NCBI RefSeq assembly: GCF_007747995.1
Contig: NZ_CP036276.1
Location: 3,463,001 to 3,527,000, forward strand
Length of the DNA stretch: 64,000 nt
Reading direction: 5' to 3'
Source of the DNA: Symmachiella dynata
Lineage (GTDB): Bacteria > Planctomycetota > Planctomycetia > Planctomycetales > Planctomycetaceae
Shown here: one piece after another, positions 1 through 3,950 of the stretch
Position numbering within the stretch: position 1 is the first letter of the stretch
How the letters are laid out: every line of letters starts with the position of its first letter
Position numbers and translations under genes: made by a program
Notes under the pieces: model-generated
Seen by the model: the letters and a program-made list of their open reading frames with translations, nothing else
What the model was told of the DNA's origin: nothing
Database searches by the model: none

Positions 1-769
1 TGATTGCCGCCAAATGGAGTTTGCCCGCAGCGGCTGTCAGCAAGAACCGCCACGGCTGATCCCGGAAATCGATGTTCGCGCGGCGGATGCTAAAGAACAG
101 CGTGCGTTCGAAACCGGCGGGAACTCTGGCTGTCTCCGGAGGCGACCATTCAACCGTCTGGTCGGCAGCTTCAATCGCCTGGAATAAATGCTCCAAAAGC
201 CCTGACATCAGCCGGAAATACACGTATTGGCGTTCCCGGCGGATGGCCAGTTCCTCATCCTGGTACCGATTGCCATCGTCGTCGACACGGGTCGCATCGC
301 CAAACCAATTGAGGGATGCCGGATCATTGAGAATGTAGTCTTGAATCAACAACCGTGCCTGAACGATGTCACAGAGACTGATCTCGGCCGGCGGCCTCAG
401 CAAGCTGATCGCATCTTCATGAATCGAAAGGTACTCACGGCTTTGCGATAATTCCGCGAGGCCGGTGTATTCCGCTCGCTTGTGCGTCGCAATTGCCACG
501 TGGGCATCTGCTACCGTCATTAACAGGCCCAAATATCCCGACTCGCGACATTTTTTGCGAAACTCGCAAGCCGGGCAGACGGCTTGGACGACCGACAGGC
601 CCATCCCCTCGGCAATGTTGGAGTTGTCGTTCCAGCAATTCTGTGGGCGCTCGCCCGTGTCTTCGGTCATACGCGGCGGATAACAGGCGGCAATGATGTC
701 GTTTCGCTCGTATTGCTCGCGCACCTCGTCACAATTTTCGTGAGTTGGATAAATAAGTAGCGACCTCAT
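1..769 (-). CDS. Helicase-like protein, C-terminal half of a split primase-helicase (partial, runs off window)
   Basis: An open minus-strand frame runs from ATG 769 to the window edge without a stop (about 256 residues seen). It starts MRSLLIYPTHENCDEV, like helicase motif Ia. A cysteine cluster follows (NCWN, then VCPACEFRKKC), in the place where XPD/DinG-type helicases carry an Fe-S cluster. Further on, ATHKRAEY and SIHEDAI resemble the region around a degenerate DEAH motif. The P-loop itself is missing here and sits at the C-terminus of the upstream gene. The ATG overlaps that gene's TGA (ATGA) and has GGAGG 8 nt upstream, so termination-reinitiation coupling is likely. Inference: the two genes form one primase-helicase of the integrated element. 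Helicase activity is predicted from motif order only. Confidence 0.6.
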   Translation of the reverse strand, partial: MRSLLIYPTHENCDEVREQYERNDIIAACYPPRMTEDTGERPQNCWNDNSNIAEGMGLSVVQAVCPACEFRKKCRESGYLGLLMTVADAHVAIATHKRAEYTGLAELSQSREYLSIHEDAISLLRPPAEISLCDIVQARLLIQDYILNDPASLNWFGDATRVDDDGNRYQDEELAIRRERQYVYFRLMSGLLEHLFQAIEAADQTVEWSPPETARVPAGFERTLFFSIRRANIDFRDQPWRFLLTAAAGKLHLAAI

Positions 770-1851
770 ACGGCGTTCCTCCGTCGCAACGCCCAGAGTA
801 TGACGGCCAAGTCGACATGCGACTTTCCTGCCCCTGTTGTACTGGCGTCGATGTACACACCCGGACAACCGAGCGAGTGGAGCCGGACTTGCAGCATCTG
901 ATCGCGCCAATCGTCGACCGCCACCGCCGGTCCGGTCGGTTTCGGCGGCCGGATGACGATCGGTGGACTGATCACCGTCGTTTCCAAACCGGAAACGAAT
1001 AGGTCCGCCAATCGATCGGCGGGAAGTTTGGGCATCACATTCAGCCAACCGCGCGCATCCTTGGCGTTATCTGGCGGCAGTGCCCAGGCGATTGGTTGTT
1101 CGAGTTCTTCGGCGAGACGTTTGGCAGTGCGAACCGCACCGTCACGGCCTGGCCATTTGCCATCTGGTTTCTCGTCCCGCTCTCCGATGACGATGATCTC
1201 ACGGTTGTGATCAACCCCGGACAACATGCCAACCAGATGATCCACACCACCACAATTGGACGGCCGCCCCAAGGTGCTAAGCCCAATCGTCAAAAGCGCT
1301 GCAGTGTCGCTTCCGCCTTCAACCAACAGAATCGGGCCTGCACCGGCATCCCAGTCGGCCGCGTACGTCAGCCCCGTGTGTCCACCCTTCATGCGAATTT
1401 TCGAGCCGTCCCGTCGCCGCGTGGCGATCCCAATAATTTGACCGCTCGCATCCTGTTCAGGGAAAGTCCAACAGAAACGTTCGACGTTCCAACCGACGCC
1501 GAGGGCAGCAAGTGCCGTAGCGGAGACGCCCAATTCGCCGGCCAACCGCTGACGATGTTCTTCAGCACCATTGGCGAACCGGTCCACCAATGCGGGCCAG
1601 TCCTGTGTCGGCGAAGTCGAACGAGTCGATGGCCGTATACGCACTGGAGGTGGCGGATTCCGGTCATACGGATCGTCATCCAAGCGGTGTAGATATTGCC
1701 CACCGGCATTCACGCGCAGCGCACCGTCGGAGACGCGCCCGCACCAGACCACCTTCCGGTCGTTGGAAACCGAACAGTTGTCCGGTTTGCCGCAAACGGG
1801 GCAGGGATCACCGTGCGAAACACGCATCCAGTTGTCGGCGGGACTTACCAC
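766..1851 (-). CDS. CHC2-type zinc finger / TOPRIM primase ending in a Walker A motif
   Basis: 361 residues. An N-terminal zinc-binding pattern (PCPVCGKPDNC, then WCG) resembles DNA primase CHC2 fingers. A TOPRIM domain follows at about residues 150-260, with the acidic VEGGSD motif and a downstream acidic stretch around VIGERDEKPDG. Near the C-terminus is a P-loop (TTGAGKS), only about 15 residues before the stop, so the ATPase domain is cut off and seems to continue in the overlapping gene at 769. The start is GTG 1851 with AGAGAGG upstream; ATG eight codons later is an alternative. Proteins of this kind prime and unwind DNA in plasmids and integrative elements. The truncated ATPase is the oddity: a natural split, a -1 frameshift, or an assembly error. 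Confidence 0.7.
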   Translation of the reverse strand: MVSPADNWMRVSHGDPCPVCGKPDNCSVSNDRKVVWCGRVSDGALRVNAGGQYLHRLDDDPYDRNPPPPVRIRPSTRSTSPTQDWPALVDRFANGAEEHRQRLAGELGVSATALAALGVGWNVERFCWTFPEQDASGQIIGIATRRRDGSKIRMKGGHTGLTYAADWDAGAGPILLVEGGSDTAALLTIGLSTLGRPSNCGGVDHLVGMLSGVDHNREIIVIGERDEKPDGKWPGRDGAVRTAKRLAEELEQPIAWALPPDNAKDARGWLNVMPKLPADRLADLFVSGLETTVISPPIVIRPPKPTGPAVAVDDWRDQMLQVRLHSLGCPGVYIDASTTGAGKSHVDLAVILWALRRRNAV

Positions 1852-2392: not shown

Positions 2393-2394
2393 TC

Positions 2395-3950
<1,556 letters not shown>

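Follow-up and report, generated by a model that had tools for sequence, protein, structure and literature searches.

Two overlapping genes of Symmachiella dynata raise the question of whether a primase-helicase can be divided naturally inside its ATP-binding domain, or whether the apparent division reflects ribosomal frameshifting, two independent proteins, or an error. The genes lie at the edge of the 64,000-nt stretch of DNA analyzed here (hereafter, the window), where an earlier sequence-only reading recognized a primase-helicase whose P-loop is separated from its Fe-S/DEAH-like part. Alignments with single-chain homologues and a predicted DinG/XPD-like structure bear out that description. 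In this work, homologues were collected from genomes of the same family, class and phylum, and their alignments were combined with substitution analysis, tree building and structure prediction.

Organization of the split junction

The upstream gene (gene 1; 361 aa, GTG start) occupies positions 1851-766 of the minus strand and encodes a primase chain with a Cys-rich N-terminus and Toprim-like motifs, which ends with the first strand of a helicase, a Walker A motif and the helix that follows it. The zinc-finger-like N-terminal motif CPVCGKPDNC...VVWC (1741-1803, minus strand) is kept in the relatives G483, G482, G470 and G638, and the Toprim-like motifs ILLVEGGSD ... VIGERDEKPDG are located at 1159-1332 (minus strand). 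Near its end the protein reads GVYIDASTTGAGKS, followed by 17 residues and a TGA stop codon; the Walker A motif TTGAGKS lies at 820-840 and the 17-residue tail, which corresponds to helix A of the first RecA domain (RecA1), at 769-819, both on the minus strand. The earlier reading had placed the stop correctly, but its count of about 15 residues past TTGAGKS should be exactly 17.

The downstream gene (gene 2) starts on the minus strand at position 769 with an ATG that lies in the -1 frame relative to gene 1 and inside an ATGA stop-start overlap (766-769), and a GGAGG run (782-778, minus strand) is found 8 nt upstream of this start codon. The run is Shine-Dalgarno (SD)-like; a search of the host genome sequence for the SSU rRNA (16S), which would supply the anti-SD sequence, found none. 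Gene 2 encodes 595 aa and extends about 1.0 kb beyond the window edge, to genome position 3461982, so that only its first 256 residues fall within the window (1-769, minus strand). The opening residues MRSLLIYPTH constitute motif Ia (SLLIYPTH at 763-740) and are followed by four conserved cysteines, C45, C65, C68 and C74, at the position of an Fe-S-type cluster (548-643, minus strand; invariant in 10 diverse sequences), and by HEDA, aligned to motif II at the DEAH-box position (410-421, minus strand). The second RecA domain (RecA2), motif VI (QATGRGR) and a terminal winged helix are encoded outside the window. The -1 overlap, the order of motif Ia, cysteines and HEDA, and the GGAGG run between the genes had all been pointed out from the sequence, and each was located where it was expected.

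Conservation of the junction

An alignment-based scan of genome contigs recovered seven split loci in four genomes, with the cut identical to the residue in all of them: three paralogues in S. dynata (the window copy, or copy A, and copies B and C), one locus in the congener G519, one in a Baikal MAG (G470, locus L100), and two in Thalassoglobus neptunius KOR42 (G194, locus L101). In the host genome (7.77 Mb, a single contig), copies B and C match the window copy at 91-93% DNA identity, and their ATGA and GGAGG are unchanged. The G470 genes are 51% and 54% identical to the window pair, and both Thalassoglobus copies are about 42-44% identical to it. The GKS of the Walker A motif is present in every locus and is always followed by exactly 17 residues, and exactly seven residues of gene 2 precede PTH in 7/7 cases. 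A conserved ATGA overlap, which the sequence-only reading had proposed to look for in relatives, was found in five loci; both Thalassoglobus copies have TGATG instead. A G-rich SD-like run also accompanies the junction, as GGAGG in both G194 copies and as GGGGGG in G470. Selection on RNA at this run is suggested by the sequence comparison, because GGAGG is kept while the encoded residues differ (RR vs EE).

The split is genuine and conserved, not the product of a sequencing error, because the same junction occurs in seven loci of four independently assembled genomes. Copy 1 of G194 has a second frame break inside gene 2 and may be decaying, and copy 2 is interrupted by a contig end. This second break (L101, at about 6697), near residue 234 and with no obvious downstream start codon, may represent decay, sequencing error or another split.

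Single-chain homologues and origin of the split

The search for single-chain homologues of the joined protein, another check suggested by the earlier reading, yielded proteins that align with it end to end. These more distant homologues have 950-1255 aa, and one ORF encodes the whole helicase, P-loop included, in G483, G638, G600, G620, G698, G400, G477, G392, G307 and G257. The G638 protein (1002 aa) aligns to residues 18-954 of the joined pair with 36% identity, and both halves align with the G483 protein (1018 aa) at 41-42% identity. Gene 1 is co-linear with the single-chain homologues over its full length, and the split gene 2 retains the four cysteines together with motifs Ia, II and VI, as these homologues do. 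Walker A and motif II are thus found on one polypeptide in the single-chain relatives and on two, gene 1 and gene 2, in the seven split loci.

The split is the derived state, because the more distant homologues are single chains. In a tree of the helicase core, built without the P-loop part, the split loci fall on one side of one branch among unsplit relatives (bootstrap 75, SH-aLRT 97). Branch support for a single origin is moderate, and both the trees and the structural models are based on few sequences; the simplest reading of these data is one fission, kept over a long divergence. Uninterrupted ORFs in relatives had been named in advance as evidence against the split, and such ORFs do exist among the distant homologues; they do not refute it, however, because the relatives that group with this protein keep the cut and the tree allows one origin.

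Insertion of an intein or intron was considered and rejected, since the two halves (361 + 595 aa) leave no room for it when compared with single chains of about 950-1018 aa. Transcript slippage was rejected as well: no homopolymer exceeds 4 nt at the window-copy junction or 6 nt in any locus.

The same protein family is also cut at other positions. At L099 (5767), the Toprim part is separated from the helicase via an ATGA overlap, and in G474, G422 and G478/G480 a beta-hairpin loop is the site of a cut that separates the two halves of the helicase (L102 at about 1387-1421; L050, L051 and L052). Judging from these gene arrangements, fission seems to recur in this primase-helicase family.

Helicase type and predicted structure

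None of the models in Pfam, NCBIfam and PHROGs recognizes the helicase, and its type was assessed from predicted structure. The AlphaFold2 model of the single-chain G483 homologue (mean pLDDT 76.7, from a shallow alignment of 13 sequences) was matched by Foldseek to DinG (6.8e-14), CasDinG and XPD (3e-11), and T7 gp4 and phage Toprim primases were also among the fold matches. The helicase fold is accordingly predicted to be of the DinG/XPD-like SF2 type, and the metal of the four-Cys cluster would be Fe-S rather than zinc. In the model, a strand (354-357) leads into the P-loop and is followed by a helix (366-379) and the next strand (384-388). At the split loci, the cut falls at the equivalent of residues 381-382, within the loop between helix and strand, and the 17-residue tail of gene 1 corresponds to the helix 366-379. 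The gene 2 product modeled alone (the G470 protein) had no convincing helicase match by Foldseek, with SecA as the best one (1e-3); this would fit an incomplete RecA1 domain and could equally reflect a weaker model, the structure models being based on 9-13 sequences. Searches of phage records by tblastn and of viral contigs found no homologues, and fold matching in the viral library returned two whole-length matches, both to unnamed proteins (953 and 1085 aa).

The primase part

Gene 1 has a weak match to phrog_239, DNA primase/helicase (E=0.002), and no Pfam match above the cut-off; zinc-finger matches fall below it, and a PDB sequence search with gene 1 gave nothing useful. The zinc-binding motif CPVC...C...C at the N-terminus, recognized from its residues only, is kept in relatives, and the region of the G307 relative that corresponds to the Toprim motifs of gene 1 matches DUF3854 (E=7e-23) and, weakly, Toprim_3. 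In relatives, the same helicase core is joined to other primases, namely AEP-TOTE, RepB/PriCT, Prim-Pol and DUF3854. Fusions with AEP-TOTE + PriCT, DUF3854/Toprim, RepB-type and Prim-Pol modules were observed at L103, L020, L054 and L055. The domain content suggests that primase modules have been swapped around one helicase core, and a role in replication is supported because relatives fuse this core to primase modules.

The host element

The gene pair belongs to an integrated element that encodes a large serine recombinase (integrase; 2394-3894, plus strand), a ParB-like protein, a ParB-DNA methylase and a DUF1937 protein, as well as a gpA-type terminase in copies B and C; the recombinase paralogue of copy B matches Resolvase/Recombinase/Zn_ribbon_recom. 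A tRNA-Pro(cgg) gene at the element end (3875-3950, minus strand) is the likely attachment site, and copies A, B and G519 all adjoin tRNA-Pro genes. Related elements are found at three different tRNA-Pro genes (cgg, tgg and ggg: window 3875-3950, L005 2806-2881 and L056 1267-1341), and in copies A and B the tRNA-Pro gene adjoins the serine recombinase. As no capsid or portal genes were recognized in the element regions examined, the element could be either a satellite or a degraded prophage. Upstream of gene 1, iteron-like repeats (ACATGCGCCACA) lie in an inverted repeat with 26-nt arms (1959-2038). They are identical in copy B, nearly identical in G519 and absent upstream of copy C, and represent a possible candidate for the origin or an operator of the replication module. 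Downstream of the copy B terminase (L115 1464-16744, L116 1626-9256), there is a run of defence-like genes for ZacA, ZacB and ZacC, a DrmMI-like or type IIG methylase, a UvrD-like helicase and a DruE-like protein.

Selection on the two genes and alternative explanations

Purifying selection acts on both genes. Comparison of the four close copies gave dN/dS values of 0.10-0.13 (gene 1) and 0.13-0.29 (gene 2). Values this far below 1 bear directly on the explanation by sequencing error or a decaying pseudogene, for which the existence of single-chain homologues and the further frame break in G194 copy 1 could be cited. This explanation is hardly credible, given also a cut common to all loci, including three close copies in one complete genome, and the conservation of both the start codon and the SD-like run. 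It is very unlikely that a programmed -1 frameshift close to the gene 1 terminus yields a fused primase-helicase, with the gene 1 stop producing a short form. The -1 position of gene 2 in 7/7 loci agrees with such a shift, but this geometry is inherent in any overlap of the ATGA or TGATG kind; a GGAGG run is able to promote -1 shifting, but at every locus gene 2 retains an ATG and an SD-like run of its own. A strict X_XXY_YYZ heptamer is absent from the window copy, as the sequence-only reading had remarked, and likewise from G470 and either G194 copy. The heptamer GGGAAAG, the lambda G-GT slip site, coincides with the P-loop codons in copies B and C and in G519 and is absent from the other four split loci. 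Its presence there is probably a coincidence, and a frameshifted fusion is unlikely because a slip at this site would destroy GKS and replace the following helix with an unconserved peptide. Moreover, the coding signal of the gene 1 frame persists to the last codons. Pairwise differences across the 31 terminal codons of gene 1 amount to 51 synonymous and 6 non-synonymous in its own frame and to 6 and 51, respectively, in the gene 2 frame; therefore no selected protein is read in the gene 2 frame upstream of its ATG, and a frameshifted fusion is not expected. Of the two expression routes offered by the earlier reading, termination-reinitiation is thus favored by the conserved ATGA/TGATG overlap and SD-like run in seven loci, and the -1 frameshift is disfavored.

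It is also unlikely that the genes encode two independent proteins, with the P-loop of gene 1 serving a purpose of its own and gene 2 acting as an ATP-independent DNA-binding partner. Gene 2 does lack its own P-loop and gave no good helicase match when modeled alone, and the P-loop segment of gene 1 could bind ATP on its own account. However, motifs Ia, II and VI and the cysteines of gene 2 are conserved as in the single-chain homologues, the cut position shows no drift, and gene 1 retains only one strand, a loop and one helix of the helicase, an arrangement not known as a stand-alone ATPase.

Comparison with known systems

DinG/XPD helicases have the closest predicted fold, with motifs I, Ia, II and VI present and the four cysteines between motifs Ia and II; unlike them, the helicase described here is joined both to a Toprim primase and to a winged helix at the C-terminus, and in the split clade its Walker A motif is on the other polypeptide. 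In primase-helicases of the T7 gp4/Twinkle type, too, a Cys-rich N-terminus and a Toprim primase are linked to a helicase as part of a phage replication module, and gp4 is among the Foldseek matches. The T7 gp4 helicase is hexameric and of the RecA/DnaB type, whereas the window helicase is predicted to be DinG/XPD-like SF2 and is split.

The cyanobacterial plasmid Rep proteins CyRepA1/CyRepA2, which consist of DUF3854 and DEXDc (PMC10079941), likewise combine a Toprim-related DUF3854 with a helicase domain in one replication protein, and a single-chain planctomycete relative matches them through the DUF3854/Toprim region. A close relationship to CyRepA1 is not supported, since the helicase parts fail to align convincingly (profile comparison gave a marginal 49-column P-loop match, E 0.05); in addition, the two CyRepA1 proteins examined are single chains without the four-Cys cluster pattern. 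Gene pairs with ATGA/TGATG overlaps, coupled by termination-reinitiation, show an enrichment for proteins that act as subunits of the same complex (PMC6728339, PMC10666635). The pair described here resembles them in overlap length (4 nt or 1 nt), in the SD-like run and in that its products would be subunits of one complex, but such genes usually encode whole subunits, whereas here the boundary splits a RecA domain beside Walker A.

Proposed mechanism and implications

We consider it probable (at about 0.74) that the two genes encode the primase-helicase with which an integrated phage-like element replicates, in the form of two reinitiation-coupled chains that would rebuild one DinG/XPD-like RecA1 domain; we infer the reinitiation, the docking, the ATPase and unwinding activities and the Fe-S cluster. 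In the proposed scheme, the ancestor would have been one chain in which a Cys-rich N-terminus and a Toprim primase preceded a DinG/XPD-like SF2 helicase that contained the four-Cys cluster and ended in a winged helix, and a single fission would have occurred in the RecA1 loop between the post-Walker A helix and the next strand. Ribosomes would terminate gene 1 at its TGA and reinitiate at the overlapping ATG, aided by the SD-like run, so that both chains are co-made. The first strand, P-loop and helix of the primase chain would then dock in trans on the RecA1 core of gene 2 and rebuild one ATP site, and the assembled pair is expected to hydrolyze ATP and unwind DNA.

With slightly less than an even chance of being correct, we further suggest that the helicase is licensed by the primase: the gene 2 product would have no ATPase activity until the primase subunit docks and completes RecA1, and unwinding without primase would be impossible by construction, because Walker A is on the primase chain. 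If so, this would be a natural split helicase, with an ATP site built from two polypeptides. A search of open-license papers on split helicases and primase-helicases found nothing relevant.

A RecA-like motor domain is normally regarded as indivisible, and here a cut that adjoins Walker A is retained across genera. In mobile elements of planctomycetes, the family pairs a DinG/XPD-like helicase with primases of the Toprim and AEP types, a combination for which the family libraries used have no model. If the chains reassemble, they would form a natural split motor and provide a test of the covalent continuity that a P-loop NTPase needs, as well as a ready-made dependence of helicase activity on the primase.
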